Source of the DNA: Rothia mucilaginosa ATCC 25296
Lineage (GTDB): Bacteria; Actinomycetota; Actinomycetes; Actinomycetales; Micrococcaceae
Length of the DNA stretch: 64,000 nucleotides
Direction of reading: 5' to 3'
NCBI RefSeq assembly: GCF_000175615.1
Contig: NZ_ACVO01000001.1
Coordinates: 1 to 64,000, forward strand
In this document: in pieces, positions 8,845-57,493 of the stretch
Layout: every line of letters begins with the position of its first letter
How positions within the stretch are numbered: the stretch's first letter is position 1
The notes under the pieces: model-generated
What the model was told of the DNA's origin: nothing
Seen by the model: only the letters and a program-made list of their open reading frames with translations
Database searches by the model: none
Program-made: the position numbers and the translations under genes

Positions 8845-8886
8845 ATATTCCCCGGCTGAATATTCAGCCGGGGAATATTGTTTTAA
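8845..8886 (+). terminator. Rho-independent terminator
   Basis: Long perfect palindrome ATATTCCCCGGCTGA/TCAGCCGGGGAATAT followed by TGTTTT, directly after the glycine-rich protein gene. Confidence 0.85.
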
Positions 8887-8972
8887 TCTGCAGTGCCCAT
8901 CTAGCCCACCCCTGCCTAGCCCAGAGTCTGAGAACCCGCCCGCACACTCTACCGCCCACCCGCGGCGCGTAT

Positions 8973-8978
8973 TACGGT
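8973..8978 (+). promoter_or_regulatory. -10 box for leaderless leuB
   Basis: TACGGT is followed by six bases and the ATG at 8985. No Shine-Dalgarno sequence is present, so a leaderless message is likely. Confidence 0.5.
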
Positions 8979-8984
8979 AGAGGC

Positions 8985-10040: not shown

Positions 10041-10088
10041 TACTTGCCCGGCTAAAACTGGCTCGGCTAAAACGTGAACTACGCTAGC

Positions 10089-10121
10089 GAAGCCCGGAAG
10101 GAACGCACCTTCCGGGCTTCA
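10089..10121 (+). terminator. Terminator after leuB
   Basis: GAAGCCCGGAAGG-AACGCA-CCTTCCGGGCTTC is a perfect 13-base stem. A long T-run is absent, as is common for terminators in this genome. Confidence 0.75.
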
Positions 10122-10393
10122 CCTGTTCACATCCTGAATGGGAGAAAAGGTGCGCATGCGGCAAACGCATCTTTCCGGTACTCTAAACAGGTCAGGCACA
10201 CCCGCCCGGCACCTCGGCGGTGGACACCCTCCACCACTCGCTTGATGCATCCAACTAGCACAGACCGCTAGATGCACCATCTGCCCCGCACGACAACGCG
10301 CCCGGCGGCACACACCGGCTCTACGCCCCGACGCAAGAACCGCGAATCAAAGAACGCCTGCAAAAGCAACTAGACAAAGAGGAACGCAGAACG
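10122..10393 (+). other. ilvE upstream region
   Basis: No gene is supported. TACTCT at about 10179-10184 is a possible -10 box, which would give a leader of roughly 200 bases. Within it a nine-codon frame begins ATGCATCCAACT near 10244, but it has no run of branched-chain codons, so I do not call an attenuator peptide. The region ends with AAAGAGG, a ribosome binding site ahead of ilvE. Confidence 0.35.
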
Positions 10394-11491: not shown

Positions 11492-11516
11492 AACGTGAAT
11501 CTAACGTAACCCGCGA

Positions 11517-11563
11517 AATCCCCGCAGGATGCGCCCGCACCCGGAACGCGCACCCGCGGGGAT
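11517..11563 (+). terminator. Terminator after ilvE
   Basis: AATCCCCGC...GCGGGGATT forms the outer stem, with further GC pairing inside (GCGCCCGC/GCGCACCC). It is followed by CGCTGTG, like other terminators in the window. Confidence 0.65.
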
Positions 11564-11726
11564 TCGCTGTGCCCGGTCAGTGCTGTGCTCAGCGAATATT
11601 GCGCGCGGCGTTGATAGCGCGATGACAGGGGAGGGGAGGCACACCCCGCCGCCGTCCCTCGATAAAACCCGCCCCGCCGAACCCGACCCCGCTAAAACCC
11701 GACCCGCCGCCGCCCTCGAAGGCTGG

Positions 11727-11732
11727 TACCCT
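11727..11732 (+). promoter_or_regulatory. -10 box for the hydrolase gene
   Basis: TACCCT is followed by seven bases and the ATG at 11740, the leaderless arrangement. Confidence 0.5.
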
Positions 11733-11739
11733 AGAAAGT

Positions 11740-12492
11740 ATGCGTATTGCACGATTTACCGTAAATAATGAGCTCCACTTCGGGCTGGTAGAAGGCGACG
11801 CAGGCGAAGAAACCCTGCGCGTACTCGCCGGCGACCCCTTCTACTCGGGCATCGAACCGACCGGCACCACCTACCCCATCGATCAGGTGCGCCTGCTCGC
11901 CCCGATCATCCCCCGCTCCAAGGTGATTGGAGCGATCGCAAACTGGGCAGGAACCGAGGCGCCCGCCTCCCCGCAGTTCTTCCTCAAGCCCAACACCACC
12001 GTGATTGGCCCCGGCGACCCCGTGACCCTGCCCGAGTACTCCGAAGCCGTCAGCGCAGAAGGTGAACTCGCCGTCATTATCGGTCGTATCGCCAAGTCCG
12101 TGCCTCTTGAGCGCGTACACGAAGTCATCTTCGGCTACACCGTAGCCAACGACCTCACCGCCCGCGACCTGCTCGAAGACCGCCAGTGGACCCGCGCCAA
12201 GGGCTTCGACGGCTCCACCCCGCTCGGCCCCTGGATCGAAACCGACCTGGACACCGACTCGCTGAACATCACCACCTGGGTTGACGGCGACGTCGTGCAG
12301 GAAGGTAACACCTCCGAAATGCACTACTCCGTAGCCGAACAGGTTGCCGCAGCCTCCGAAATCTTCACCCTGCTGCCCGGCGACGTACTGCTCACCGGCA
12401 CCCCCGCCGGCATCAGCGTACTGCGCGACGGCAACGAAGTAGAGGTCGAAGTCGAAGGTATCGGCTCCCTCGTCACCCGTGTGCGCGACTAA
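11740..12492 (+). CDS. Fumarylacetoacetate hydrolase family protein
   Basis: Member of the FAH superfamily, metal-dependent enzymes that cleave C-C bonds or decarboxylate 2-oxo acids. The 250-residue length fits the short FahA/YcgM-like class. Visible features are the metal-binding glutamates in SAEGELAVIIG, the conserved GYTVANDLTARDL block, and TPLGPWIETD. The C-terminal LLPGDVLLTGTPAGI motif is classic for the family. The substrate cannot be assigned: acylpyruvase or oxaloacetate decarboxylase activity are both possible. The gene sits 57 bases ahead of gltX, a pairing common in actinobacteria. gltX has its own ribosome binding site (AAGGAG) and the two are probably co-transcribed. Confidence 0.9.
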   Translation: MRIARFTVNNELHFGLVEGDAGEETLRVLAGDPFYSGIEPTGTTYPIDQVRLLAPIIPRSKVIGAIANWAGTEAPASPQFFLKPNTTVIGPGDPVTLPEYSEAVSAEGELAVIIGRIAKSVPLERVHEVIFGYTVANDLTARDLLEDRQWTRAKGFDGSTPLGPWIETDLDTDSLNITTWVDGDVVQEGNTSEMHYSVAEQVAAASEIFTLLPGDVLLTGTPAGISVLRDGNEVEVEVEGIGSLVTRVRD

Positions 12493-21926: not shown

Positions 21927-23000
21927 ATGTCTTTCAACCGAACCGAGCTGACCGACGCCGAAAACCACGGCGCATCGGGCGTTAACCGCCGCGCATTCTT
22001 CGGCCTGGCGCTCGCCTCCTCGGCTGCTCTCGCCCTCGCGGCATGCAGTAGCGAGACCACCACGACCACCACTTCCGGCGGTTCCACCTCCGGCGGCAAT
22101 AGCGGCACCCGCACCATCAAGGACATTGACGACGAGAATGTAGAAGTTCCCGCCAACCCGCAGAAGGTTATCGTCCTCTCTGAACCCACCCTCGACGGCC
22201 TGCTCGCCCTCGGCGTGACCCCCGCCGGTTCTGTCTCCGGCCGCGGTCAGTCCGGCGTGCCCAACTACCTTGCCGACCGCGCCAAGGGCGTGCAGATTAT
22301 CGGCACCGTCGCCCAGGTCAACTACGAGCAGATTGGCAACCTTGATCCCGACCTGATTCTGGTCGACTCCACCGGTGTGGACAAGCGCTCCGAGGCCTTC
22401 GAAACCCTCAAGAAGATCGCCCCCGTCGTCTACTGCGGCTACGCGGGCGGCGACTGGCGCATCAACTTCCGCAACGTCGCCAACGCTATGAACATGGTCG
22501 ACAAGGGCGAAGAAGTCATCAAGGCATACGAGTCAAACGCTGCTACGCTGAAGGACCAGCTCGCCCCCAAGTACGGCGACAAGACCTTCTCCATCGTCCG
22601 CTGGGCAGGCAACGGCCCCGCCCTGATTCTCAAGGAACTGCCCGCCGGTCAGGTACTCAACGACCTGGGCCTCAAGCGCCCCGAGTCGCAGGACCGCAAC
22701 GGCCAGGGCCACTCCGAGCCGGTCTCCCTGGAGAACCTGGCAACCATCGACGCGGACTACATGTTCCTGGGCACCCTCGGCGGCGCAAGCCAGCAGAACC
22801 CGAACGCGCAGGGCTCCGCAGGTCTGCAGGGCGCCGAAGAAGCACTGAATAAGGCGAAGGAAACCTCCGGCTTCACCAACCTGAAGGCAGTCAAGGACGA
22901 CCACGTGATTCTCGTGGACGGCTCCAAGTGGACCTCCACCGGCGGCCCGCTGCTGCTCGAGGGCATTATCGAAGACGTCAAGAAGGCGCTTCCGCTCTAA
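21927..23000 (+). CDS. Ferric siderophore-binding lipoprotein (FepB-like)
   Basis: Substrate-binding component of an iron-siderophore ABC importer, 357 residues. The signal combines a twin arginine (NRRAFFGLALA) and a lipobox LAAC with lipidated C40, so it is probably exported folded by Tat and anchored to the outer face of the membrane. A Thr/Ser/Gly linker follows. The two-lobed periplasmic-binding-protein domain starts at about 75 (KVIVLSEPTLDGLLALGVTPAG) and includes the helical backbone typical of class III binding proteins. The putative iron box, the FecCD permeases at 26527-28700 and the catechol-type NRPS indicate ferric enterobactin-like ligands, but ligand choice is an inference. 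Confidence 0.9.
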   Translation: MSFNRTELTDAENHGASGVNRRAFFGLALASSAALALAACSSETTTTTTSGGSTSGGNSGTRTIKDIDDENVEVPANPQKVIVLSEPTLDGLLALGVTPAGSVSGRGQSGVPNYLADRAKGVQIIGTVAQVNYEQIGNLDPDLILVDSTGVDKRSEAFETLKKIAPVVYCGYAGGDWRINFRNVANAMNMVDKGEEVIKAYESNAATLKDQLAPKYGDKTFSIVRWAGNGPALILKELPAGQVLNDLGLKRPESQDRNGQGHSEPVSLENLATIDADYMFLGTLGGASQQNPNAQGSAGLQGAEEALNKAKETSGFTNLKAVKDDHVILVDGSKWTSTGGPLLLEGIIEDVKKALPL

Positions 23001-43669: not shown

Positions 43670-45142
43670 ATGACTGAAAACAAGAAGGCACAGATTGGTG
43701 TCACCGGCCTTGCTGTCATGGGCGCAAACCTCGCCCGCAACCTGGCACGTAACGGCTACACCGTGGCACTGCACAACCGTTCCGTAGAGAAGACCGACGC
43801 ACTGCTGGCTGAGCACGGCGCAGACGGCGACTTCATCCGCACCGAGTCCCTGCAGGAACTCGTCGACTCCCTCGAGTCTCCCCGCCGCATCCTGATTATG
43901 GTCAAGGCGGGCGCACCCGTCGACGCTGTTATCGAGCAGCTCACCCCCATGCTCGATGAGGGCGACATCATTATTGACGGCGGTAACTCCCACTTCCCCG
44001 ACACCATCCGCCGCGAGCACGCCCTGGCTGAAAAGGGCCTGCACTTCGTGGGCGTTGGCGTCTCCGGCGGCGAAGAGGGCGCTCTCTGGGGCCCCTCCAT
44101 GATGCCCGGCGGTTCCGCAGAGTCCTACAAGCACCTGGGCCCGCTGCTCGAAAAGATCGCAGCGAAGGCACCGCAGGACGGCGCACCCTGCTGCGCATGG
44201 ATTTCCACCGACGGTGCGGGTCACTTCGTGAAGATGGTCCACAACGGTATCGAGTACGCCGATATGCAGGTTATCGGCGAGGCATACGACATTCTCCGCT
44301 CCATCGCAGGCATTGAGCCGGCACAGCAGGCAGAAATCTTCAAGACCTGGAACGAAGGCGACCTGAGCTCCTACCTGATCGAAATCACCGCTGAGGTGCT
44401 CGCACAGGTAGACGCAAAGACCGGCAAGCCCCTGGTTGACGTTATCGTTGACGCAGCGGGTCAGAAGGGTACCGGCCTGTGGACCGCTAAGGCTGGCCTG
44501 GACCTCGGTTCCCCCGTCTCCGCTATCGCAGAGTCCGTGTTCGCACGCGCCCTCTCCTCCTCTGAGCGTGAGCAGCGCGAGCAGGCACAGCGCGAACTGC
44601 CCGCAGGTCTGATTGCAACCACCGGCATCGGTGCAGGCGACCCCGAGTTCGTTGAGGATGTGCGCCGCGCACTCTTCGCATCCAAGCTCGTTGCGTACGC
44701 ACAGGGCATGGACCTGCTCACCCGCGCAGGCAAAGAATACGGTTGGGACCTGAAGCTGGACACCATCGCATCGCTGTGGCGTGCAGGCTGCATCATCCGC
44801 GCCGAGCTGCTGGGCGACATCATGGCTGCCTACGCAGGCGAAGCACCCGCAAACATGCTGCTGGCACCCGCTTTCAAGAACCTCATGGAGGAGCTCGTTC
44901 CTTCCTGGCGTCGCGTGGTGGCTAAGGCAACCGCACTGGGCATCCCCGTGCCGGTGTTCGCTTCCGCACTGTCCTACTACGACGGTCTGCGCCGCGACCG
45001 CCTGCCCGCATCCCTGATTCAGGGTCAGCGTGACTTCTTCGGTGCACACACCTACGGTCGTATTGACGAAGAGGGCGCCTTCCACACCATGTGGAGCGGT
45101 GACCGTTCTGAGGTGAACGCAGCGGACATTCACGTTCACTAA
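43670..45142 (+). CDS. gnd: 6-phosphogluconate dehydrogenase (decarboxylating)
   Basis: Oxidises and decarboxylates 6-phosphogluconate to ribulose 5-phosphate with NADP+, feeding the epimerase encoded at 20875-21570. The 490 residues match the long homodimeric form. The N-terminal nucleotide fold is GVTGLAVMGANLARNLARNGYTV. IIDGGNSHFPDT, GVGVSGGEEGALWGPSMMPGG and the catalytic GAGHFVKMVHNGIEYADMQ follow. The C-terminal helical domain ends with QRDFFGAHTYGRIDEEGAFH. It has a leaderless promoter and is followed by a strong terminator. Confidence 0.97.
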   Translation: MTENKKAQIGVTGLAVMGANLARNLARNGYTVALHNRSVEKTDALLAEHGADGDFIRTESLQELVDSLESPRRILIMVKAGAPVDAVIEQLTPMLDEGDIIIDGGNSHFPDTIRREHALAEKGLHFVGVGVSGGEEGALWGPSMMPGGSAESYKHLGPLLEKIAAKAPQDGAPCCAWISTDGAGHFVKMVHNGIEYADMQVIGEAYDILRSIAGIEPAQQAEIFKTWNEGDLSSYLIEITAEVLAQVDAKTGKPLVDVIVDAAGQKGTGLWTAKAGLDLGSPVSAIAESVFARALSSSEREQREQAQRELPAGLIATTGIGAGDPEFVEDVRRALFASKLVAYAQGMDLLTRAGKEYGWDLKLDTIASLWRAGCIIRAELLGDIMAAYAGEAPANMLLAPAFKNLMEELVPSWRRVVAKATALGIPVPVFASALSYYDGLRRDRLPASLIQGQRDFFGAHTYGRIDEEGAFHTMWSGDRSEVNAADIHVH

Positions 45143-45163
45143 GCTCCCGTAGCTGAATACGTC

Positions 45164-45210
45164 AAAGCCCGCCTTCGGCTGGATGAGAATCCGGTCGAAG
45201 GCGGGCTTTC
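45164..45210 (+). terminator. Terminator after gnd
   Basis: AAAGCCCGCCTTCG...CGAAGGCGGGCTTT, a 14-base stem with a long loop, then CGTTA. Confidence 0.85.
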
Positions 45211-45348
45211 GTTATATCTTCAATATGTTGTTGCGCGGGGTGCTAAAGAGAAGCGTCCCTAGGGGAAGAACCGTAGGGGAGAGGCGTTGCGGATATTAGC
45301 TAGGAGCCTCCAGCCGCGCCTCTACCGCCTCAAAACACTTGCCAAGCG

Positions 45349-45933
45349 CTAAATCCACATGGCGGGGTCAATATACTCCACAGCGTCCACCAGCGGCTTC
45401 TTCTTCTCCGGGGTACGCGGGCGGTGCTTCGCCGGAATGCCGGTAATAATCGAATCAGCCGGATGATCATTGACCACCACAGCGTTCGCGCCAATAGCGC
45501 TATCGGCACCAATAACCACCGGACCCAGCACCTTAGCACCTGCACCAATGGTCACACGGTCACCAATAGTGGGGTGACGCTTCACCTTCTCCAGGGAGCG
45601 ACCGCCCAGGGTCACGCCGTGGTACAGCATCACGTCGTCACCAACCTCAGCGGTCTCACCAATGACAATGCCCATGCCGTGATCAATGAAGAAACGGCGG
45701 CCAATGGTCGCGCCGGGGTGAATCTCCACACCGGTCAGAAAACGAGCAAACTGCGAAAGAGTACGAGCCAGAGCCTTCGTCTCATCCTTCTGCCAGAGCT
45801 TATGGGTCAGACGATGAACCCAAATGGCGTGCATACCCGAATAGTTCAGCGCAATCTCGACAGCGCCGCGCGCAGCAGGGTCGTGCTGGCGGACGTTCTC
45901 AATATCTTCACGCAGACGCGCAATAAAACTCAT
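45349..45933 (-). CDS. cysE: Serine O-acetyltransferase
   Basis: Acetylates serine with acetyl-CoA to give O-acetylserine, the substrate of the cysteine synthase encoded next door. I place the start at 45933 ([13 protein letters not shown]), preceded by GAAAGGGA, which gives 194 residues. The left-handed beta-helix is visible as hexapeptide repeats ([27 protein letters not shown]) with the active-site histidines. The last residue is Ile (AMWI), as in CysE proteins whose C-terminal tail inserts into CysK to form the cysteine synthase complex. cysK lies upstream on the same strand, separated by a terminator. Confidence 0.94.
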
Positions 45934-46170
45934 GGGTTCCCTTTCCCTCATCGGTCGCGCTCTGTGTATGCGACCTTTCCAAAGGTACCAACAACGGGAC
46001 CCTTTCGGCTATTCCCACCGCAATCAGCAACATGATGGACGCACCCGCCCGTGTCACTGCTCAACCGCGGCGGATGCGCGCGGGACGGTAGAAAAGAACA
46101 GCCGGGGACCAACAGGGGAGCGGCGGAACAGCTCAGCTCCTCGCCGTACAGTTCGCAGAGGGCATAGAAA

Positions 46171-46208
46171 CGCCCCGCCTGCCGTGTATGCAACCGGCAG
46201 ACGGGGCG
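46171..46208 (-). terminator. Terminator after cysK
   Basis: CGCCCCG(T/C)CTGCCG...CGGCAG(A/G)CGGGGCG stem in the cysK-cysE gap, followed on the minus strand by TTTCT. The rest of the 324-base gap between cysE and cysK shows no gene. Confidence 0.8.
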
Positions 46209-46257
46209 TAGCACTATAAACCTGACGCCTCCCGATAGCGGGGGCTCAGAAGCTCAA

Positions 46258-47193
46258 TTAGCCGCGGATATCCTCGTACAGAGCGGTAGAGATGTAACGC
46301 TCACCGAAGTCGGGAACGATAGCCACAATCAGCTTGTCCTTGTTCTCAGACTTCTTAGCTTCCTCCAGAGCAGCCCACACAGCCGCACCGGAAGAAATAC
46401 CGCCCAGAATACCTTCCTGGGTAGCCAGCAGGCGGGAGGTGCGCATAGCGTCCTCAGCGCTGACCGGAGTCACCGAATCGTAGATGCCGCGGTCCAGGGT
46501 GTCGGGAACGAAGTTAGCGCCCAGGCCCTGAATCTTGTGGGGACCAACGCGACCCTCGGAGAGCAGCGGGGAGTCCTTCGGCTCAACCGCAACAACCTTA
46601 ACGTTCGGGTTCTGCTCCTTCAGGTACTTACCGGTACCGGAGATGGTGCCGCCGGTGCCAATACCCGCCACGAAAATGTCGACCTTACCGTCGGTTGCTT
46701 CCCAAATCTCGGGGCCGGTGGTGTTGTAGTGAATGGTGGGGTTCGCCTCGTTGGAGAACTGGGACGCCAGGATAGCGTTCTCGGTGGTCGCAACGATTTC
46801 CTTAGCCTTCTCCACAGCGCCGCGCATACCCTCGGTACCGGGGGTCAGAACAATCTGAGCACCGTAAGCGCGCAGCAGCACGCGACGCTCAGCAGACATG
46901 GTCTCCGGCATGGTCAGGATGACGCGGTAACCGCGAGCAGCACCCACCATAGCCAGCGCAATACCGGTGTTACCGGAAGTGCCCTCAACAATGGTGCCGC
47001 CGGGCTTCAGCGCACCCGACTTCTCAGCAGCGTCAATGATGGCGCGGCCGATGCGGTCCTTGACCGAACCTGCGGGGTTATAGAACTCAAGCTTGACCGC
47101 TACGTTACCGGGAAGACCTTCGTCCAGTCGGTTCAGCTTAACCAGGGGGGTCTGGCCGGTTGCTTCAACAATGCTGTTGAGAATCTTTGCCAT
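46258..47193 (-). CDS. cysK: Cysteine synthase A (O-acetylserine sulfhydrylase)
   Basis: PLP enzyme of 311 residues that joins O-acetylserine and sulfide to make cysteine. The start at 47193 (MAKILNSIVEATGQTPLV) is chosen because GAAGGAG lies just ahead; the longer frame to 47268 has no such support. The PLP lysine is in NPAGSVKDRIG, the substrate loop is EGTSGNTGIALA and the phosphate-binding glycines are GIGTGGTISGTG. It works with cysE just downstream. Sulfide supply genes are not in the window. Confidence 0.96.
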   Translation of the reverse strand: MAKILNSIVEATGQTPLVKLNRLDEGLPGNVAVKLEFYNPAGSVKDRIGRAIIDAAEKSGALKPGGTIVEGTSGNTGIALAMVGAARGYRVILTMPETMSAERRVLLRAYGAQIVLTPGTEGMRGAVEKAKEIVATTENAILASQFSNEANPTIHYNTTGPEIWEATDGKVDIFVAGIGTGGTISGTGKYLKEQNPNVKVVAVEPKDSPLLSEGRVGPHKIQGLGANFVPDTLDRGIYDSVTPVSAEDAMRTSRLLATQEGILGGISSGAAVWAALEEAKKSENKDKLIVAIVPDFGERYISTALYEDIRG

Positions 47194-47594
47194 GGGGTGC
47201 TCCTTCATGAGCTTAGGGGAGGCCAGCCGCGACGGGGTCTCCGCAATGAATAATCGGTTACGTGGCAACTCTACTACTCACCGGCAGTAGGTTTAAACCT
47301 GCGGTCACAGTTCGTAATAATGCCAGAGAAAAACCTCAAGGAACGAGGTTCAGAAAGAGGGTACAGAAAAGCGCCGCACAAACCCTTTCTCGACAAAGGA
47401 TGATGAATGTGCGGCGCTCTCTAGAAACATTATGTAGCCCAAAAGACAACCTCTGTATATAAGAGTAGTGGTGAACTCTGTTCACCGCAAGCTGGAGCCA
47501 CAAATTTTATTGCCATCAATGGAAAAAACAGTAGAAAACCGCATCCTGAGACGGCACAACGCTAAAAGCGGGGGAGAGAACCAGCCTCAGAGGA
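47194..47594 (-). other. cysK upstream region with a terminator at 47365-47419
   Basis: No gene is supported. On the minus strand AGCGCCGCACA...TGTGCGGCGCT, with an inner CCTTT/AAAGG stem and a following TTTTCT, forms a terminator for the lipoprotein array (47365-47419). The part nearer cysK (47194-47340) must carry its promoter. I could not identify a sulfur-responsive riboswitch there. Confidence 0.5.
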
Positions 47595-48371
47595 CTAGTT
47601 GATGTCCATGTGAAGGTCCCACTTGTTGTTCAGGTAGCGGCCAACAGCCTCACCGAACATCTTCACGTGACGCTTATCAGCCGCCACGGTCTGCTCCTTG
47701 CCGTCCTTGAACAGCTTCTCACCCAGATCCACGTTCAGAGTCACGGTCCAGTTGTACGCGCCCTGCGCCAGAACAGGGTGCTTGGTGCCAATAGTCAAAG
47801 TAGCGGTCGGGTTCACGTACCAGGTCTTCTTCTCGTCAATACCTGCCTTAGTGGAATCCGCGTACTTCTTCATTGCCGCCAAGGTCTCCTGATCGGTGCT
47901 GACCTCGTTCATGTAGTGCATATCGCCGGTACGCAGCAGGTACTCAAACGCCGCCCCGAAGTACGCCAGAGCCGCCGCAAAGCCAGCCACCGAATTCTGG
48001 TGCATAGCCTCCGGAACGATCGGGGACGGCACGTTCTGCGGCGGGTGCTCAGCGTTACCCGGCTGGTACTCGCCGTGATCCTCCATCTTCTCCAGCTTCG
48101 CTACGCCGCTGTAATCCTTATTGTCGTTAGGCAGCGGAGAGTTCGTCGCAGTAGCCGAAGCCGACGCAGAAGCGGACGGGGAAGCAGACGCCGATGCAGA
48201 AGCAGAGGGCGAGGCGGTAGCAGACCCAGAAGCAGCAGCAGAAGCGCTCTCAGAGCCAGAAGCGGAAGCAGACGCCTCAGAAGTAGCCTTAGAGCCACAA
48301 GCCGCCAGCAAAGCCATGGAGCTGACGCCCAGTACACCCAGCGCCGCGCGGCGGGTCAGGTTCTCGGACAT
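47595..48371 (-). CDS. Lipoprotein array, member 1
   Basis: Protein of 258 residues with a signal combining twin arginine (TRRAALGVLGVSS) and lipobox (LLAAC, Cys at about 25). A 50-residue Ser/Ala/Pro spacer follows. The core (about 88-258) carries the array's common pattern: HPPQNVPSPIVPEA, ENS-like QNSVAGFAAALAYF, AAFEYLLRTGDMHY, a later TWYVNPTATL and a closing NKWDLHM. From memory it resembles the actinobacterial lipoprotein family DUF6318, although the family's usual cysteine pair is missing. GAAAGG precedes the ATG. Function is unknown. The Ser/Ala tract probably spans the cell wall. It is the last gene of the five in the direction of transcription. Confidence 0.8.
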   Translation of the reverse strand: MSENLTRRAALGVLGVSSMALLAACGSKATSEASASASGSESASAAASGSATASPSASASASASPSASASASATATNSPLPNDNKDYSGVAKLEKMEDHGEYQPGNAEHPPQNVPSPIVPEAMHQNSVAGFAAALAYFGAAFEYLLRTGDMHYMNEVSTDQETLAAMKKYADSTKAGIDEKKTWYVNPTATLTIGTKHPVLAQGAYNWTVTLNVDLGEKLFKDGKEQTVAADKRHVKMFGEAVGRYLNNKWDLHMDIN

Positions 48372-48488
48372 AGTGATACCTTTCAGTCAGTCGGTGATTG
48401 CAACCAGTTTAGCCGCAAACCCAACAGGATACAGAGTTGAGCGGACGAAGCGTGAGAAGCGCCTCGCAGATAAAAGCGTTATGACGAA

Positions 48489-49484
48489 CTATGACGCCGC
48501 GGAGGTGGCGGACGCCTCAACGGACGCCTCAGCAGAAGCGGCGGCAGAAGAGGGCGCAGAAGCCGAACCGGATGCTGCCGCGCTCGCAGAGGAAACACCG
48601 CCCTGAGCAGCGCTACCCTGGGCAGTGGCACCCTGAACAGTGGCACCGTACGCCACGCTCAGCTCCCACATCTTAGAATCAGCGTGGTAGCGACCGCGGA
48701 AATCGCACTCCTGAACCGTTACCCGAGAAGCCGGACCCGCCGCAGTAGCAGTAGCAGAAGCCGAAGCAGTAGGGGACGCCGCGTCAGACACCAGCGCATC
48801 CTCGGACGGCTCAGTAGGCTCAGCAGACGCCGAAGCGCTCGCCGAGGCAACCACCGGCTGGATCTTGCCCTCAGCCACCGCCTCCGCACCGAAGTCCAGA
48901 GTGTACTTGCCCTTAAACAGCAGGTTGCCATCACTCATAATGGACGGTTGCGCACTCGAAAGCGCATAGGAAGCCGACGGATTCACATACCAGGAACCCT
49001 TCTCCACACCCGCAAGAATAGAAGCCGACAGAGCATCCACCTCAGAGCGAGTCTTCGACGACAGCTGAATACCGGTCGAGAACGCATCCGTGCTACCGGT
49101 CTTCACCAGATAATCCATAGCCGCCGCAAAATAGGCAATCGCCTCATGAAAACCCGTCACCGTATTCGCCGACAGAGCATCAGTCACCTTCGGCTTCGGA
49201 GCATTACGCGGCGGATGATCCACCGTACCCTGCTCATAATTCACCGCACCCTCATAGTGGGTGTACTCCACCAGACCCGAATAGTTCTGACCATCATCGC
49301 TGTACCCATTCGGGTTAGCGCTCGACTTCGAACCGTTCAGGCTACCGCCCTGAGAACCCGACTGCTGGCTAGAGCTACCCGAGCCGCACGCGCTCAACAG
49401 CGCCGCAGAACCGGCAACAGCGGATGCGCCCAAGCCCAAACGCAGCAGAGAACGGCGCGAGAAAGACTGAGAAAAAGAAGACAT
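48489..49484 (-). CDS. Lipoprotein array, member 2
   Basis: Protein of 331 residues. Twin-arginine-type signal (FSRRSLLRLGLGASAVAGSAALLSAC) with lipobox Cys at about 33, then a short Ser/Gly/Gln spacer. The core has DHPPRNAPKPKVTDALSANT, AIAYFAAAMDYLVKTGSTD, SWYVNPSASYAL, FDxR-type DFRGRYH and KMWELSV, matching the other members. A Ser/Ala/Glu/Pro low-complexity insertion splits the core near residues 215-250. A second Ala/Ser-rich tail ends the protein. These tracts distinguish it from member 1. Ligand or partner are unknown. Confidence 0.78.
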   Translation of the reverse strand: MSSFSQSFSRRSLLRLGLGASAVAGSAALLSACGSGSSSQQSGSQGGSLNGSKSSANPNGYSDDGQNYSGLVEYTHYEGAVNYEQGTVDHPPRNAPKPKVTDALSANTVTGFHEAIAYFAAAMDYLVKTGSTDAFSTGIQLSSKTRSEVDALSASILAGVEKGSWYVNPSASYALSSAQPSIMSDGNLLFKGKYTLDFGAEAVAEGKIQPVVASASASASAEPTEPSEDALVSDAASPTASASATATAAGPASRVTVQECDFRGRYHADSKMWELSVAYGATVQGATAQGSAAQGGVSSASAAASGSASAPSSAAASAEASVEASATSAAS

Positions 49485-49536
49485 AAGAGAAAAACCTTGA
49501 ATCCAGGAAAGCTCGTTACTACCAGAGTAAAACAGA

Positions 49537-49571
49537 TCATGCCCTAACCCGAGTGCGAGTTAGGGCATGAT
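49537..49571 (-). terminator. Terminator between lipoprotein members 3 and 2
   Basis: ATCATGCCCTAAC-TCGCACTCG-GGTTAGGGCATGAT stem, followed on the minus strand by a T-rich stretch (CTGTTTTAC). It implies separate messages for members 3 and 2. Confidence 0.75.
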
Positions 49572-49590
49572 GCCTCATCCATCTGAGGGC

Positions 49591-50445
49591 TTAAAGGTTG
49601 TCACCATTAGAATTGCCGCCATTACCGGAGTTGCCGGAATTGCCAGCATTACCGCCGTTAGCGGCACCACCGCTGGCACCACCATTAGCGCCACCATTCT
49701 GCGGCTGAGCCGATGCCTGAGCCTCGTACTCATCCTGAATAGTCAAAGTCCAGTCATTATCGTGGCGCACACCGGTAATCACCAGACCGCGCTCAGTACG
49801 GCGCACCTTCTCAGACATCTCCGCAGGAGCACCGTCAATCACCACGGTCGGACCCAAATCAATCACCAAGTCAAAGGTCCACTGCACGCTCTTCTTCACC
49901 AGCGCAGGAACTGCAGTGAACGCAGACATGGTCACCTTCGGCGACACAAACCAATCACGATTCTGCGAGCTCTCATTCGACTCATCCATAAACGAAGAGA
50001 ACGAAGCAATGAATTTCTCATCAGCCTTCGACTCACGCAGCGGAGCCGCATCACCGGTCAGCACCAGGTAGTTAATCGCCGCATACACGAACGCAATCGA
50101 ATCGTATAGACCCTGCACCGAGTTCTCCGAAGCGCTCGCTGGACGCTTGGGGAACGGCACGTTCTGCGCGGGAGCAGACTCGGTCGCCGGAATGAAATCA
50201 CCCTTCTTCTCGTAGTTATCGAAGGTTACCTCGCCGCTAAAGTCAGCGCGCGCAGAAGCAGAGGGGGAAATCTGAGGGGTATCCGCATCAGCGTCCTCGC
50301 TGGTGGACGAAGAACCACCGCACGCAACCAGTAGGGCGCTCAAAGACACGCCCGCAACGCCCGCACCCGCGTAGCGCAGAGCAGAACGGCGGCTGATGCC
50401 GGTAGTGGAACTGGGAAGCCCGGAGGTCATGGGGAAAAGCGCCAC
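49591..50445 (-). CDS. Lipoprotein array, member 3
   Basis: Protein of 284 residues from the GTG at 50445, which follows GAAAGG with normal spacing; a downstream ATG at 50430 is an alternative. The signal is GISRRSALRYAGAGVAG with lipobox LLVAC (Cys at about 39). An acidic spacer precedes the core: ESAPAQNVPFPKRPASASENSVQGL, AFVYAAINYLVLTGDAAPL, DWFVSPKVTMSAF and DNDWTLTIQDEY. A Gly/Asn-rich tail (NGGANGGASGG, NSGNSGNGGN) ends the protein. The core is shared with the other four members, while the tail composition is its own. Confidence 0.78.
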   Translation of the reverse strand: MALFPMTSGLPSSTTGISRRSALRYAGAGVAGVSLSALLVACGGSSSTSEDADADTPQISPSASARADFSGEVTFDNYEKKGDFIPATESAPAQNVPFPKRPASASENSVQGLYDSIAFVYAAINYLVLTGDAAPLRESKADEKFIASFSSFMDESNESSQNRDWFVSPKVTMSAFTAVPALVKKSVQWTFDLVIDLGPTVVIDGAPAEMSEKVRRTERGLVITGVRHDNDWTLTIQDEYEAQASAQPQNGGANGGASGGAANGGNAGNSGNSGNGGNSNGDNL

Positions 50446-50718
50446 GGAATACCTTTCGAGTGAGAATCTCAGGTGAGAGACGAGTGAGAGAAAGCCTCGA
50501 CGAGCGGATATCACACGCGGACATCCCTCTAGAGACAGTCCTAAGTATAACGCGCCCCCGCCTTCACACCCGTGTGTACCAGCGCTCAAACGAGCGTGAT
50601 ATGCCGCCCATCAGCGAACTTACCGCAACCAGCGGCAACAGCGCACCGAAAGGGGCACAGGGAATAGTGAAGGAGAGGACGCGTTCAACGTCTATAGGGA
50701 TTGTCTATAGGGGAGGGG

Positions 50719-51888
50719 CTACTGGGCACCCGCCGCGGGAGCAGCATCTCCACCAGCGGCACCGGGCTGAGCGGCACCGGGATCAGGAGCACCGGGCGCT
50801 GCGCTCGGCTGAACCGTCGCAGCGGCAGGCTGAGTTGCCACAGGCTGCGCGGTAGCCGCAGGCGCCTGGGTAGCGGCAGGCTGAGGAGCCTGAGCCGCGC
50901 CACCCTGACCGGTGCCGGTCTGCGCACCACCGTTCTGGGAGCCAGTGTACTGACGGGAACCGTTCTGGGCGGCAGGAGCCTGCGCACCACCGTTCTGCGC
51001 GGCACCATTCTGAGAAGTGCCCTGAGCCGTGCCGTTACCCGAAGTATTCGCGCCGGTGTGTGCGCCAGCATTAGCCGCCACGGTGCTGTCATCAGTCACC
51101 GTCGGGGTATAGGTCGAGGAAGGATGCGCACGCGGAGTCTGCGTCGGCTTCGGGGTCAACGCGGGATCGTACTGCTGAGGCGCAATTACCAACCAGCGCT
51201 TCGCCTCTTCATCGTACTCAGCGTAGAGAGCCTTAATCTCCTGTGCCTCAGTGTCTTCCAGAGGCTTGGTCGTATTGGTCGCCTTCTCAACCTGCATACC
51301 GTGCGCCTGAGTTACGGTGCACGCCCACGCATACTTAGTGCCGCGGGTCGTCGGCTGCTTATCGGTCAGACGGAACGTCCACTCGCCGCCCACCAGCCAG
51401 TTCGTACCGGGAGCATAGAATGCACGCAGCTTCTCCAGCGCCGCACGGTTGGTAGAGTTCTGAGCCTGAACCACCTGCAGAGCAGGACCGGGGTCACCGG
51501 TCATGCGGGCATAGTTCACCGCCGCCGCAAAATACGCGAAGGTGGCGCGCAGACCGCGGGCGTTCTTGTCGTACATGCTCTCATCCTCAATCGGGATGGG
51601 CACGGCACTCGCCTTAGAATCAACGCTTGCCGGGCCGGCAGTCGGCTCAATCGTGTAGACCTGACCGGTTTCCGGGTCGGTGCTACTCATCGGAGCTGCG
51701 CCATTACCGGGAATGTACTTGGTCCACTTCAGCTCGCCCGACAGATTGTCGTAGGCACCCGCAATCGAAGCGGAAGCAGTGGGGGAGGCGGTCGCCTCCG
51801 CAGTCTTTTTGGAACCGCAAGCGGCAAGCATCGCACCCAGGGCGGCGGTGCCCGTAAGCGCAATAAAGTGGCGGCGGCTGTGAATCAT
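50719..51888 (-). CDS. Lipoprotein array, member 4
   Basis: The longest member, 389 residues. Signal HSRRHFIALTGTAALGAMLAAC, lipobox Cys at about 24. The core includes KASAVPIPIEDESMYDKNARGL, TFAYFAAAVNYARMTGDPGP, TNWLVGGEWTFRL and KRWLVIAPQQYD, aligning with the other members. About 140 C-terminal residues form a Gln/Gly/Ala/Asn-rich tail (QNGAAQNGGAQAPAAQNG and similar units), then Ala/Pro. The tail is likely disordered and may cross the wall or bind other surface polymers. AAGGGG precedes the ATG. Confidence 0.78.
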   Translation of the reverse strand: MIHSRRHFIALTGTAALGAMLAACGSKKTAEATASPTASASIAGAYDNLSGELKWTKYIPGNGAAPMSSTDPETGQVYTIEPTAGPASVDSKASAVPIPIEDESMYDKNARGLRATFAYFAAAVNYARMTGDPGPALQVVQAQNSTNRAALEKLRAFYAPGTNWLVGGEWTFRLTDKQPTTRGTKYAWACTVTQAHGMQVEKATNTTKPLEDTEAQEIKALYAEYDEEAKRWLVIAPQQYDPALTPKPTQTPRAHPSSTYTPTVTDDSTVAANAGAHTGANTSGNGTAQGTSQNGAAQNGGAQAPAAQNGSRQYTGSQNGGAQTGTGQGGAAQAPQPAATQAPAATAQPVATQPAAATVQPSAAPGAPDPGAAQPGAAGGDAAPAAGAQ

Positions 51889-52097
51889 AGTGATCCCCTT
51901 GAATGTGCTGTGATGCGGAAGTATCGGTGATAAGTGAAGAGCTCACGCTCCAATTCTCAGCCTAACATCACGCCCCTACAGGAGGGCGCGAAGCAGTCAC
52001 CCGCAGGGCGGGTAGACGCGTATTGAGGCGAAAATGGGCGGACCTCATCTAGCCCTAGCCTATAGATTTCACGCGTGGCACACAAATAAAAGCCCTC

Positions 52098-52146
52098 ATC
52101 CGTGCCTCATATCACCCAATATGACGGGTTCTTTGAGGCACGGATG
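52098..52146 (-). terminator. Terminator after lipoprotein member 5
   Basis: CATCCGTGCCTCA...TGAGGCACGGATG stem, followed on the minus strand by GGCTTTTATTT. Confidence 0.82.
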
Positions 52147-52156
52147 TAAAGAAGCT

Positions 52157-53038
52157 TTAGGCTGAGCCTCGAATATAACGAGCCGCCTTAGAAGGGGTGC
52201 TCTTATTCGGGGTCGGGTGCGCACTCGGAATATTCGCGGACGGTTCAGCGGTAGCCGCAGGGGTGGCGGTAGCACTCGGGGAAGACTTCGGATCCTCCAG
52301 CATCTGCCAGCCCTCTTCACCAAAGTAGACGTAAGCATCCGCCTTCTGATTGCTGCCGTAGATACCGGTGAGCTGCTCACGCTGACGGGTCTCATGGTTG
52401 AACAGGAACGCGTTTTCGTCCACCTTCAGGGTCGCCTTCCAGCAGTAGACGTCCTGCTCGGTAGCGGGCACCGGCTGCGGGGAGCTCAGGTTAATGCACA
52501 TGGGGTGGTTGTTCTTAGAGACCAGCCAACCAATGTTGTAGCGGTAGATATCGCGGTACATTTGCGCCATCTGACTAAAGTGCTCCTGGCCGGGCAAATC
52601 CATGAAGGGATTGGTGTCACCGGTGAGGAGCATGTAGTTCTGCGCCGCACCCCAGTACTGCAGGAAGGCGTGCAGGCCCTCGACGGTGCGCTCTTTAGCT
52701 TCCGGGGGCATGGTGGGGCGGGGGACATTGACGGCTCGATGGCTCAGGGTACCGTTCGAGAAATTTCCGGAACGCTCAAAGAACTCATCGGGCAGGATCG
52801 CCGGTCCGCGACCGTCCAGGGCGGATGCGGGCAGGGGCTCGGCGTAGGTGATGCTGCGCGTGGTGGTCGCAGATTTAGTCTGGGCGCTCTGAGTCGCATG
52901 TGCGGCATCAGTGGGAGAAGGTTCAGTGAGTGGTTGAGGGCGAGAAACTGCGCTGGGGCTGCAAGCGCTTGCGAGTGCGCTCAATGCTGCTCCGGAAGAA
53001 AGAGCAAGAAGATGGCGACGTGACAGCGAACCGAACAT
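52157..53038 (-). CDS. Lipoprotein array, member 5
   Basis: Protein of 293 residues from the ATG at 53038, with GAAAGG six bases upstream. Signal LSRRHLLALSSGAALSALASAC, lipobox Cys at about 26. The core has HRAVNVPRPTMPPEAKERTVEGL, LQYWGAAQNYMLLTGDTNPFMDL, IGWLVSKNNHPMC and EEGWQML. It is closest in wording to the DUF6318-like pattern (EGLHAFLQYWGAAQNY) and contains two cysteines in the mature part (PMCIN, VYCW). The short Pro/Ser/Thr tail ends in a basic stretch. As the first gene in the direction of transcription, it may mark the ancestral end of the array. Confidence 0.78.
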   Translation of the reverse strand: MFGSLSRRHLLALSSGAALSALASACSPSAVSRPQPLTEPSPTDAAHATQSAQTKSATTTRSITYAEPLPASALDGRGPAILPDEFFERSGNFSNGTLSHRAVNVPRPTMPPEAKERTVEGLHAFLQYWGAAQNYMLLTGDTNPFMDLPGQEHFSQMAQMYRDIYRYNIGWLVSKNNHPMCINLSSPQPVPATEQDVYCWKATLKVDENAFLFNHETRQREQLTGIYGSNQKADAYVYFGEEGWQMLEDPKSSPSATATPAATAEPSANIPSAHPTPNKSTPSKAARYIRGSA

Positions 53039-53635: not shown

Positions 53636-55564
53636 GTGACTACCACCGACTATGCGCAGCTCAAAGCAGCTCGCGAACTGCTCACTCGAATCCCCCTCCC
53701 GCTCGACGTAGAAGCCGGCGAAACCCCCGGCACCCCCTACACCGTCACCCACGACGGCACCGCCGAGCACGGCACCGCCACCGCGCGCACCCTGCTCGCC
53801 GCCATGGCACGCCAACTCGACGACTACATCCTGCCCCGCAGCGCCAGCGTCGACAACCCCCTCACCATCGTGGTCGGAGGCTCCACGGGCGCCGGCAAAT
53901 CCACCCTCGTCAACACCCTTCTCGGCGAACCGCTCACCCAGTCCGGCGCGATTCGACCCACCACCCGCCACCCCGTACTCCTGCACCGCGCAGAAGACGA
54001 AGCGGCGCTGTCGCCCGAACGCTTCCTGCCTACCCTGCCGCGCACCCGCACCTCCGGCATGAACGCCGGATCGCAGGCACTACCCGGCCTCGACCCGAAG
54101 ATTGCGCGCGCCCTCATTCCTATTACTACCTCGGCGCTACCGCAGGGCATCGCGCTCATCGACGCACCCGATATCGACTCCGTCTCCGAGGAAAACCGCA
54201 CCCTCGCCAAGGAGCTGCTCTCCGCCGCTGACCTGTGGCTCTTCGTCACCACTGCCAACCGCTACGCCGACGCCGTGCCCTGGGAACTGCTCCACGAAGC
54301 AGCCGCACGCTCCATCGCCATCGCCGTGGTGCTCAACCGTGTGCCCGAAGGCGACGAAGAAGCCATCGAAAACGACCTGCGACGCATGCTCGACGAGGCC
54401 GGAATCCACGCCGTACTGATTCACACCGTCACCGAACAGCCGCGCGACGAAAGCGGCATGCTCGCACCCGTCAGCCTCGCCCCGCTGACCCTGTGGATCC
54501 GCGAACTCGGCGCCGACGCACCTGCCCGCGCCGCCATCGCCCGGCAGACCCTCGCCGGTGCCGTCGAAACCCTCGCCGGTAACCTGCAGGTGCTCGCCGC
54601 CGAACAGGCACGCCAGCAGGCGGCACACCAGTCGCTTGCCACCATCGCCGCCGAAGAATACGAGGACGCGCTGACCACCATTGACGGGGCGCTCTCCGAC
54701 GGCTCGCTGCTACGCGGTGAAGTGCTCTCGCGCTGGCACGACTTCGTGGGAACCGGCGACTTCTTCCGCTCCCTCGACAGCACCATCGGTCGCCTGCGCG
54801 ACCGCGTCGGCTCCGCACTGCGCGGTCAGCCCGCCGCCGCACAGAAGGTAGAAGACGCCCTCGAAAGCGGCATCCACGCCGTCGTGCTGGATGCAGCCGC
54901 CCGTGCCTCCGAAAACACCCGCACCCGCTGGCGTGCCAGCCGCGCCGGACGCTCCCTGCTGGCGCGCCTTGATGCGCCGCAGGCTGTTTCTGTTGCGCCG
55001 CAGGCTGTCTCCACCGCACCCGAACAGAACGCAGGCGCAAACGGTGAGGTGAAGGGCAACGAAGCGAAGGGCGAAGTGCAGTCCGCCGAGGACATCTTCT
55101 CCGCAGCCGTTGCCGAACAGATTCGCCTCTGGCAGGGCTCCGTGCTCGAAATGATTCGCGAAGAAGGCGCCGACAAGCGCAAACGCGCCCGCTTCCTCTC
55201 CCTGGGTGTGAACGCCACTGCCGTGATGCTCATGGTCGCCGCGTTCAGCCTCACCGGCGGCATTACCGGTATTGAGGCAGGTATTGCCGGCGGTAGTGGC
55301 GTGGTCGGCACCAAACTGCTCGAGTCCATCTTCGGTGAAGACGCGGTGCGCCGCATGGCAACCCGCGCCCGCACCGACCTGCTCGAACGCATGGCGGATC
55401 TGCTCACCGAGCACGCTCAGCCCTTCACCGTGGTACTCGAAGAAACCGACCCGCAGGCTGATGCCGAGGACATTCATCGCGCCGCCGAGCAGGTGCAGAA
55501 CATCGCCGCAGAAATGAGCGCGCAGAGCCAAACTGCCCACACTAACGGCACAGTTGCCCGCTAA
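53636..55564 (+). CDS. Dynamin-like GTPase, first of a pair
   Basis: Large GTPase of 642 residues. P-loop GGSTGAGKSTLVNTLLG lies at about 82-98, switch/G3 is ALIDAPDIDSV and the G4-like strand is VVLNRVP. Helical regions to about 510 are followed by a hydrophobic hairpin (GVNATAVMLMVAAFSLTGGITGIEAGIAGG) at about 520-555 that could insert in the membrane. This arrangement, and the second GTPase gene 48 bases later, resembles the DynA/DynB-type dynamin pairs of actinobacteria. Those act in membrane remodelling and septation in Streptomyces. A role in division or membrane repair here is an inference. The GTG start has no evident ribosome binding site. Confidence 0.82.
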   Translation: MTTTDYAQLKAARELLTRIPLPLDVEAGETPGTPYTVTHDGTAEHGTATARTLLAAMARQLDDYILPRSASVDNPLTIVVGGSTGAGKSTLVNTLLGEPLTQSGAIRPTTRHPVLLHRAEDEAALSPERFLPTLPRTRTSGMNAGSQALPGLDPKIARALIPITTSALPQGIALIDAPDIDSVSEENRTLAKELLSAADLWLFVTTANRYADAVPWELLHEAAARSIAIAVVLNRVPEGDEEAIENDLRRMLDEAGIHAVLIHTVTEQPRDESGMLAPVSLAPLTLWIRELGADAPARAAIARQTLAGAVETLAGNLQVLAAEQARQQAAHQSLATIAAEEYEDALTTIDGALSDGSLLRGEVLSRWHDFVGTGDFFRSLDSTIGRLRDRVGSALRGQPAAAQKVEDALESGIHAVVLDAAARASENTRTRWRASRAGRSLLARLDAPQAVSVAPQAVSTAPEQNAGANGEVKGNEAKGEVQSAEDIFSAAVAEQIRLWQGSVLEMIREEGADKRKRARFLSLGVNATAVMLMVAAFSLTGGITGIEAGIAGGSGVVGTKLLESIFGEDAVRRMATRARTDLLERMADLLTEHAQPFTVVLEETDPQADAEDIHRAAEQVQNIAAEMSAQSQTAHTNGTVAR

Positions 55565-55612
55565 ACCACTCCGGACAGGCACCCCGCACCACAGACGAAG
55601 AAATAACGCACT

Positions 55613-57493
55613 ATGACTACCCCCGAGAAGAAACTCGAGAACGCCGAGCGCAACGCCGAGCGAGGCGCCACCCCCACCGTGGCGACCTCGCCCTTCGTGC
55701 GCTCCGTCGCATCCCTGAAGGACGCCATCAGCTACGGCGAAGGACGAGTCCCCGAAACCGTGCTGCTCGACGCCGCCGAAACCCTCGAACGTCTCAGCCA
55801 ACGCCGCGAACTCTCCACCGAACACACCGTCATCGGCTTCTTCGGTGCGACCGGCAGCGGCAAATCCACGCTCTTCAACGCCATCGCCGGGCAGAACATT
55901 GCCCTCTCCGCTCCCACACGCCCGACCACCTCCACTGTGCAGGCGGCAATCTGGGAAGCCGAAGGCAGCGAAGAGCTACTTGACTGGCTCGGCATCGACA
56001 AGCGCGTCTACCCGCAAACTCAGGCGCTCGCCGCTGAAGGAGAGGCAACCGAGGGTAACGAAGCCAGCGGAAACAATAAAGTAGCCGGGGGAGTGGCGGC
56101 ACCCAATGCTGTCACCGAACCGGCACCCGGACTCTTCAACCGCATCCGCCGCGCAGTCGGCGGACGCGGCGAAATGCGCACCCGCACCGGCGGCCTCATC
56201 CTGCTGGATATGCCCGACTTCGACTCGGTCACCACCACCAACCGCGACCTCGCCGCCCGCATGATGCGCTACGTAGACGTACTCGTCTGGGTTGTCGACC
56301 CCCAAAAATACGCCGACGCCGTCATCCACCGCGACTTCATGGTGCCGCTTGCCGCATCCGGCGCGCAGGCGCTCTGCGTGCTCAACCAGGCGGATAAACT
56401 CGCACCCGCCGAGGTGCCCGCCGTGCTCGCTTCCCTCACCCGCCTGCTCCAGGCTGAGGGCACCGAAGCGCACCTGCTCGCCGCACCCATTGCCGTCTCC
56501 GCACGAACCGGTGAGGGCATCGACGTGCTCCGCGACCTGCTCGCCCAGGTAGCCGCCGCCAAGAGCCTATCCCTGCAGCGAACCGACGCGCAGCTGCACG
56601 CCACCGCCTCCCAGCTGCGCACCTACGCCGGGGGAGAGGGGACCGTGCTCGCCGGAGCCTACGCCCTCGAAGCGGAGCAGAAGCTCGTGAAGGCATGCTA
56701 CACCTCCAGCCAGGCAGAGCAGGTTCTGGAGGCGGCAACCGCCTCCTACCGCCGCGCCGCGGGTCAGCACACCGGCTGGATCCTCACCCGCTGGATGAGC
56801 CGCCTGAAGGCTGACCCCCTGCGCCGCCTACACCTGGGGCAGCAAGAGGAAACGAAGAGTGCATCTAAGGCCAAGAAGTCCGCTGGTATGCTCGGTTCCG
56901 ATAGCGAGAACGCACCCGAGCTGGTGGCATCCTCGCTACCCCCGCTGAGCGCCGCGCAGAAGGCAGGCATGGCAAACGCCGTGCGCCAATACAGCAAGCA
57001 GATGGCGGCGCGCATCGACGAACCGTGGAAGCGCAGCATGAAGGAAGCCGCCCTCTCCCGCGAGGCGGAGCTACCCGAACTGCTCGAACGCGACATGGTG
57101 CGCATCGACTACGGTCTGGGCCGCACCCGCGCCCCCTGGGTCATCTTCAACGCCCTGCAGTGGATCGCGCTACTGAGTGCCCTGGCGGGCGTCGGCTGGC
57201 TGACCCTGATTTCCGGCATGGCGTACCTGCAGATTCAACTGCCGCCCGCCCCGACCCCCGAGGGCTCCCCGGTGCCCCTGCCGACCCTGCTTCTGCTACT
57301 GGGCATACTCCTTGGCATCGCCTCGGCGGGTGTGGGCAGGCTACTTACCGCTATGGGCTCACGCTACTACGCGCGTAGGTTGCGGGGTCGCCTGCAGACC
57401 GGCATGGAGAAGGCGGTGCAGTCCTGCGTGGTCGCCCCGGTACAGCAGGAAGCAAAGCGCCTCAACGCCTACCGCAAGGCGCTGGACATTTAG
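55613..57493 (+). CDS. Dynamin-like GTPase, second of a pair
   Basis: GTPase of 626 residues. P-loop GFFGATGSGKSTLFNAIAG at about 75-93, G3 ILLDMPDFDSV, G4 VLNQADKL. The C-terminal part has two membrane helices at about 500-535 and 560-585 (WIALLSALAGVGWLTLISG and LLLLLGILLGIASAGVGRLL), followed by a basic end. It pairs with the preceding GTPase, 48 bases away. Hetero-oligomers are known for such pairs in other bacteria. Annotation as an ABC transporter, sometimes seen for this family, is not supported because the ABC signature motif is absent. Confidence 0.83.
   Translation: MTTPEKKLENAERNAERGATPTVATSPFVRSVASLKDAISYGEGRVPETVLLDAAETLERLSQRRELSTEHTVIGFFGATGSGKSTLFNAIAGQNIALSAPTRPTTSTVQAAIWEAEGSEELLDWLGIDKRVYPQTQALAAEGEATEGNEASGNNKVAGGVAAPNAVTEPAPGLFNRIRRAVGGRGEMRTRTGGLILLDMPDFDSVTTTNRDLAARMMRYVDVLVWVVDPQKYADAVIHRDFMVPLAASGAQALCVLNQADKLAPAEVPAVLASLTRLLQAEGTEAHLLAAPIAVSARTGEGIDVLRDLLAQVAAAKSLSLQRTDAQLHATASQLRTYAGGEGTVLAGAYALEAEQKLVKACYTSSQAEQVLEAATASYRRAAGQHTGWILTRWMSRLKADPLRRLHLGQQEETKSASKAKKSAGMLGSDSENAPELVASSLPPLSAAQKAGMANAVRQYSKQMAARIDEPWKRSMKEAALSREAELPELLERDMVRIDYGLGRTRAPWVIFNALQWIALLSALAGVGWLTLISGMAYLQIQLPPAPTPEGSPVPLPTLLLLLGILLGIASAGVGRLLTAMGSRYYARRLRGRLQTGMEKAVQSCVVAPVQQEAKRLNAYRKALDI

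Follow-up and report, generated by a model that had tools for sequence, protein, structure and literature searches.

A conserved tandem array of five predicted DUF6318 lipoproteins in Rothia mucilaginosa and their relatives linked to a PKD-like partner

Results

Five DUF6318 genes in tandem

The window analysed here, 64,000 nucleotides at positions 1 to 64,000 of contig NZ_ACVO01000001.1 from Rothia mucilaginosa ATCC 25296, contains five consecutive open reading frames (ORFs) on the minus strand, designated A to E by descending coordinate (from A, 52157-53038, to E, 47595-48371). The ORF coordinates confirmed the tandem minus-strand arrangement described in an earlier, sequence-only reading of this DNA. 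That reading had also noted a resemblance to DUF6318, and in a Pfam profile search all five proteins matched PF19843 (DUF6318) with 91.9-140.8 bits, far in excess of the gathering score of 23.8. For the array proteins, nothing in NCBIfam exceeded its cut-offs. A twin-arginine (RR) signal and a lipobox Cys, which had been claimed for each gene, were found by pattern in 5/5. The genes, of the twin-arginine translocation (Tat) type by prediction, are as follows:

52157..53038, minus strand, gene A: Tat-type DUF6318 lipoprotein with a 47-residue Ala/Pro/Ser tail; PF19843 139.0 bits; RR signal and lipobox; own ortholog clade
50719..51888, minus strand, gene B: DUF6318 lipoprotein with a 157-residue Ala/Gly/Gln/Pro tail; PF19843 100.1 bits; RR signal and lipobox; own ortholog clade
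49591..50430, minus strand, gene C: DUF6318 lipoprotein with a 51-residue Gly/Asn tail; PF19843 128.1 bits; RR signal and lipobox; own ortholog clade
48489..49484, minus strand, gene D: DUF6318 lipoprotein with a Ser/Ala insertion and a Ser/Ala tail; PF19843 91.9 bits, profile positions 2-130 of 158; RR signal and lipobox; own ortholog clade
47595..48371, minus strand, gene E: DUF6318 lipoprotein with a 73-residue Ser/Ala-rich stalk, almost tailless; PF19843 140.8 bits; RR signal and lipobox; core modelled; own ortholog clade

Gene A has an ATG start at 53038 and a TTG at 53044; by TTG numbering its lipobox residue is Cys 28. The shared core proposed earlier was borne out by the common profile and by 16 invariant columns in the five-way alignment (E numbering: R7, R8, A20, A24, C25, P115, P117, G130, A140, A141, Y144, T148, G149, W184, V186, and P199), with A-D being 27-34% identical to E. 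The core matches span 135-157 residues and are separated from the lipobox by stalks of 38-73 residues. Past the core match, the tails measure 47 (A), 157 (B), 51 (C), 115 (D), and 6 (E) residues. The 115 residues of D include an internal insertion that precedes the closing Trp strand; the core match ends short of this insertion. The tail of B is of low complexity, as had been stated, but instead of about 140 residues rich in Gln and Gly it has 157, of which Ala is the most frequent (41), followed by Gly (22), Gln (20), and Pro (19).

Old ortholog lineages with constrained cores

In a FastTree tree of 179 cores, every member of the array clusters with its orthologs in other genomes, and the same five ortholog clades were recovered in a 197-core tree (IQ-TREE fast, LG+G4, with FastTree for comparison), with support of 98-100 in the Shimodaira-Hasegawa-like approximate likelihood ratio test (SH-aLRT). 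Sixteen DUF6318 hits were omitted from these trees because their cores were short (192 reduced to 179 and 21 to 18), as were copies that had not been fetched. For the orthologous cores, the ratio of nonsynonymous to synonymous substitution rates (dN/dS) was 0.01-0.18 in 19 comparisons, whereas the tails of A-D gave 0.15-1.00 and contained gap columns (one comparison yielded no value). A-E are therefore five old ortholog lines with strongly constrained cores, in which only stalks and tails change quickly, and the paralogs differ from one another because these lineages are old. The sequence-only reading had suggested that the genes duplicated repeatedly and diverged fast, possibly to vary the surface; given the separate ortholog clades and the purifying selection on the cores, neither idea is supported. 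Neither exchange between paralogs nor rapid change of the exposed core, the marks of antigenic variation, was found for A-E.

The array lies between a divergent GTPase-like gene pair (53636-57493) and genes resembling cysK, cysE, and gnd (43670-47268), both flanks being assigned by eye without a profile. In genomes G001, G010, and G035, the same five genes occupy this slot in the same order, and G021 has four; G001, the nearest genome compared, contains 32% of the 31-mers sampled from the window. On the cysK-cysE-gnd side, G016 carries five, G011 six, and G002 eleven reading frames, with G016 having no adjoining GTPase pair. The eleven DUF6318 frames of this window-type array in G002 (L041) are 81-269 residues long, as if partly decaying. 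A scan of genome contigs with the alignment of E orthologs returned 3 loci, records very close to the window possibly being excluded. Other DUF6318 arrays in the related genomes do vary in copy number; one of them, at L035, L036, L039, and L040, has 10 genes in G001, 8 in G010, 3 in G035, and 3 in G021.

The slot was also compared in 14 non-expanded genomes. In 8 of them a single contig holds both flanks, with ~61-82 kb separating cysK from the GTPase pair, and the slot itself is therefore rearranged outside the expansion; the flanks are on separate contigs in 3 genomes, and 3 gave no GTPase match. In G033 (L069), an operon of DUF6318 and a PKD-like protein (described below) adjoins a window-type GTPase pair, yet its sequence groups closely with operons from other places.

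Predicted fold of the core

The core of E, the only structure modelled, was predicted by AlphaFold (AF2) with a mean predicted local distance difference test score (pLDDT) of 96.6 and a predicted template modelling score (pTM) of 0.90; the alignment used for modelling omitted 5 of 125 selected sequences. Foldseek and VIA match lists for this model consist, at moderate scores, mostly of entries that we take, partly from general knowledge, to be NTF2-like, with ketosteroid isomerases and SnoaL-like proteins among the nearest folds. Judged by these lists, the model has the two packed helices and the curved antiparallel sheet of an NTF2-like domain. Sequence links to NTF2-like families, observed for two DUF6318 members from other genera, stayed below the cut-off (Tim44, E 9.5e-4; NTF2_YvbJ, E 0.53). 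A-E themselves had no NTF2-like family match in the Pfam search, and a profile search of the PDB returned no relative, its single row being at chance level (E 1.7). Because only E was modelled, a shared fold of all five cores is suggested by their common profile. The structural comparison proposed in the sequence-only reading thus yielded a predicted NTF2-like fold for E, extended to the other four through the profile only.

The nearest public cluster to E has 97% identity and 1076 member sequences, and among the best 120 of 492 matches, the sole informative source name was 'DUF6318 family protein'. DUF6318 was named in no paper found in the literature searched, most subscription papers lying outside this search. 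No paper found brought together Rothia, comparative genomics, and the expansion of gene families, or Rothia, lipoproteins, and twin-arginine signals, and the titles and abstract openings of those R. mucilaginosa papers on lipoproteins and paralogs that were listed held nothing on the family. DUF6318 is known by name; we found nothing in the literature on its fold, operon, or expansion.

Expansion in a group of Rothia genomes

DUF6318 is present in 41/59 relatives and in 55/345 genomes of a class-wide draw (in which G001 and G021 were scored on 10 candidates only). Genomes outside Rothia that have the family carry 1-4 copies in this draw. Copy number across Rothia, proposed earlier as a check, separated seven expanded same-genus genomes with 9-38 copies (G001, 38; G011, 36; G002, 33; G010, 25; G035, 23; G021, 10; G016, 9) from the remaining 28, which have 0-5 and include two that are <75% complete. 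Of the 174 matches in these seven genomes, 137 are represented in the 197-core tree. With 38 matches in the ~2.3 Mb of one related genome, the family may form a sizeable share of the cell surface.

A PKD-like partner in the DUF6318 operon

In non-expanded genomes, DUF6318 mostly opens a tight operon, being directly followed downstream by a gene for a protein of about 230-400 residues that is secreted by its signal sequence. Strict spacing linked 46 of the 55 DUF6318 copies examined to this partner (23/28 in other Rothia and 23/27 in other genera). Of the nine unlinked copies, two are at contig ends (L101 and L103), one overlaps its partner by a longer stretch (L090), and two accompany a linked copy as extras (L089); no partner match lies near the remaining four (L076, L092, L104, and L133). 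Conversely, 60 of 63 partner genes, in 46 genomes, have a DUF6318 gene upstream on the same strand, 58 of them within 10 bp or overlapping; the other three are all at contig ends. Most of these loci were chosen via DUF6318, and the other genera are represented by 21 genomes, mainly with stronger matches. In a fairer test, 13 genomes were searched with the partner alignment, and all 16 of the 19 places found that lie away from contig ends had an upstream DUF6318 gene (16/16). Genomes G004, G007, and G020 have neither DUF6318 nor the partner. Across the 21 genomes of other genera, no neighbour besides the partner recurred in more than 4, so the linkage is not mere shared synteny. No partner match was found among ORFs of at least 60 residues in the window; A-E are partnerless.

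Pfam searches of four partners gave one match over the PKD cut-off (25.7 against 23.5 bits), one weak PKD match, and no match for two (E up to 1). The C-terminal domain of a partner model matched 4aqo, the PKD-like domain of a collagenase (Foldseek E 4.6e-3, probability 1.00); the model has low confidence outside this domain, to which interpretation was confined. The C-terminal part is also the conserved one among 30 aligned partners. Of note, in some loci the DUF6318-PKD operon is followed by an extra DUF6318 gene or more (D-P-D or longer layouts; L056, L058, L115, and L117, and L089 of G354 from another genus).

In the 197-core tree, 118 copies are set apart from the other 79 by one branch (SH-aLRT 90.6; FastTree shows the same split with 0.853). 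The 118 belong to the window and to the seven expanded genomes, include A-E, and contain none that is partner-linked, whereas 59 of the 79 are partner-linked and 20 are not. Eleven of these 20 come from expanded genomes, several of them in D-P-D or D-P-D-D layouts (L056, L058, and L117), which look like the first step of array growth. P199, W208, and Y246 are present at 79-88% in the 118, while the commonest residue at each of these positions reaches 18-29% in the others; the three residues are possibly a new common surface of the 118. A CxxC motif in the core occurs in all 27 copies from other genera (L048, L049, L050, L065, and L071-L090) and in 0/170 Rothia copies.

Export and anchoring

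Among lipobox-bearing copies, the RR signal is present in 98/98 of the group of 118 and in 24/24 other copies of the expanded genomes, compared to 1/28 in other Rothia and 9/25 in other genera. The 20 of the 118 copies that have no lipobox are partly cut reading frames and partly the short and anchored pair genes described below. As a control, lipoproteins other than DUF6318 gave one RR signal per group, in groups of just 2, 4, and 2 ORFs, too few for a comparison. The Pfam TAT_signal profile reached at best E 0.11, for C, and TatC is present in 6/6 related genomes. By their signals, A-E are predicted to be exported by Tat and tethered to the membrane as lipoproteins. Elsewhere in the window, the ORF at 21927-23000 (plus strand) also has an RR signal and a lipobox and has no DUF6318 match.

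Transcription units

Five intergenic gaps were folded (after A, after B, C-D, D-E, and after E), and two of them contain terminator-like hairpins:

52097..52146, minus strand, terminator-like hairpin after A; -35.6 kcal/mol, z -6.0
49536..49571, minus strand, terminator-like hairpin between C and D with a 16-bp stem; -36.9 kcal/mol over a 101-nt stretch, z -3.7

The hairpin after A is near-identical in L031 and L032 and absent from L034 (2/3 related loci compared), and that between C and D is kept in the four related loci L031-L034, with a changed loop in L034. The other three folded gaps gave no convincing terminator: the one following B has z -3.0 and lacks a T run, and z is -1.3 for the D-E gap and -1.9 for the one following E. 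Judging from the hairpins, the likely transcription units are A, B+C, and D+E. The earlier proposal of terminators within the array and partly independent expression is supported by these two hairpins but not by a general terminator pattern scan, which was not above chance (7 found against a shuffle mean of 6.4).

Signal-less paralogs in alternating pairs

Other arrays of the family (L037, L038, and L064) adjoin genes that resemble gap-pgk and tpiA-secG by eye. They contain short paralogs of 196-232 residues whose start coincides with the core or is close to it; a usable ATG follows a purine-rich stretch, a putative ribosome site, and inspection of the upstream frames by eye revealed no remnant of a signal peptide. 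The dN/dS of these signal-less paralogs was 0.03-0.27 (four comparisons), as under purifying selection. The gene directly downstream of each is a paralog that is anchored but has no lipobox. Three such pair types are common to G001 and G035, one of them also being present in G010, and in a more distant fourth pair in L037 the short member keeps both RR and lipobox. In L060 (G011, 7401-12152), the strand alternates along a row of six DUF6318 genes, which make up three convergent pairs and have RR in all six N-terminal signals.

Discussion

We tentatively interpret A-E as Tat-exported, membrane-tethered, probably non-enzymatic docking or receptor domains that formerly held the PKD protein and have since been given another role, a reading that we consider possible rather than probable. 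The RR signal would direct folded export by Tat, with lipidation on the Cys, and a flexible stalk would hold the NTF2-like cone outside, to which A-D would add a disordered tail or insertion. The operon lipoprotein would most likely bind the secreted PKD-like protein and keep it at the membrane. In the high-copy Rothia lineage, the lipoprotein gene would have multiplied away from its PKD partner, and the multiplied copies, with their new conserved Pro/Trp/Tyr set, may now bind something else, each paralog having a constant role of its own. The family, the gene order, the constraint on the cores, the operon linkage in the loci examined, and the 118/79 split are observed, and fold, anchoring, and the Tat route are predicted. 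That the lipoprotein binds the PKD protein is a guess, as are the present ligands of A-E; the set of related binding proteins that the sequence-only reading had envisaged is, likewise, a reasonable guess. D, however, does not have W208, the Trp of the set conserved in the 118. For DUF6318, the predicted fold and membrane location and the partner that recurs in its operon together raise the question of binding, and the contrast of partner-linked and partnerless copies makes its specificity testable.

Several other functions were weighed. Small-molecule receptors, in which each NTF2-like cone would bind and pass on its own nutrient, cofactor, or metal complex, appear unlikely. Tat export suits proteins that are loaded in the cytoplasm, and the paralogs are distinct and conserved, as such receptors would be. 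According to the available part of one survey, NTF2-like domains tend to use a common pocket for small molecules (PMC3924330), which would also fit. However, few polar positions are conserved, and no transporter was recognised directly beside the array, where the neighbours are the cysK, cysE, gnd, and GTPase-like genes assigned by eye. Extracellular enzymes of the ketosteroid isomerase or SnoaL type are very unlikely: although these are among the closest folds, and both Tyr144 and the TGD-motif Asp are conserved residues, there is no conserved His and no invariant polar residue across the 197 sequences, and extracellular NTF2-like relatives tend to be non-enzymatic, as far as the accessible text of that survey goes (PMC3924330). 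An antigenic or phase-variable surface coat is exceedingly unlikely. The low-complexity tails of A-D drift and differ from member to member, in keeping with a coat, but the core dN/dS of 0.01-0.18 in 19 comparisons, the clustering of orthologs rather than array neighbours, and the identical order of the five genes in G001, G010, and G035 all count against it.

That the operon protein is an immunity lipoprotein neutralising a harmful secreted partner, with the arrays as orphan immunity against the versions of rivals, seems quite improbable to us. In staphylococci, according to the part of the report available, the secreted lipase TslA is inhibited by its operon partner, the lipoprotein TilA, which binds it with a Kd of 14.2 nM, and relatives of TilA form tandem multi-gene families (PMC10730906). 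The order of lipoprotein and secreted partner is the same here, the tandem arrays are orphans and one of them varies in size, and polymorphic toxin systems have NTF2-like domains among their immunity proteins, as stated in the accessible text of the survey (PMC3924330). Against immunity, no toxin domain was found in the four partners scanned (E up to 1; PKD only in two and nothing in two), the conserved part of the 30 aligned partners is C-terminal, and A-E are kept one-to-one under purifying selection instead of forming a shifting repertoire. Similarly improbable is that the paralogs are NTF2-like pairs assembled beforehand and exported folded via Tat by 'hitchhiking', A-E being further subunits of combinatorial surface heteromers. 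The short and anchored pair genes suggest this arrangement, which would be a natural case of Tat hitchhiking within one domain family; the anchored type X1 (L037, L038, and L064), however, has no conserved RR.

The docking domains that we tentatively favour can be compared with known systems. Members of PF19843 elsewhere share the family profile with all five array proteins, which score above its gathering score, and stand mostly beside the PKD-like partner in the loci examined, whereas the array described here is multiplied, partnerless, and tailed. Secreted or lipid-anchored NTF2-like domains (DUF3828, DUF4878, and DUF3887), in the part of their description available (PMC3924330), resemble DUF6318 in predicted fold, lipobox anchoring, and the absence of obvious catalytic residues; DUF6318 differs as a separate sequence family with an N-terminal VPxP segment and a large lineage-specific tandem expansion. 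The PKD-like domains of clostridial collagenases are similar to the C-terminal domain of the partner (the 4aqo match, and one of four partners over the Pfam PKD cut-off), but the four partners scanned gave no protease domain match, and the partner is a stand-alone protein secreted by its signal sequence. A-E have no DUF576/Lpl profile match in the Pfam search (E up to 1). In arrangement, the closest analogy is nevertheless the TilA-TslA system with the DUF576/Lpl/Csa tandem lipoproteins of staphylococci, which, in the accessible part of its description (PMC10730906), likewise combines tandem paralogous lipoproteins at several loci with an operon copy beside a secreted partner; the Rothia system differs from it in its twin-arginine signals, its PKD-like partner without a lipase match, and an array that is stable across related genomes.

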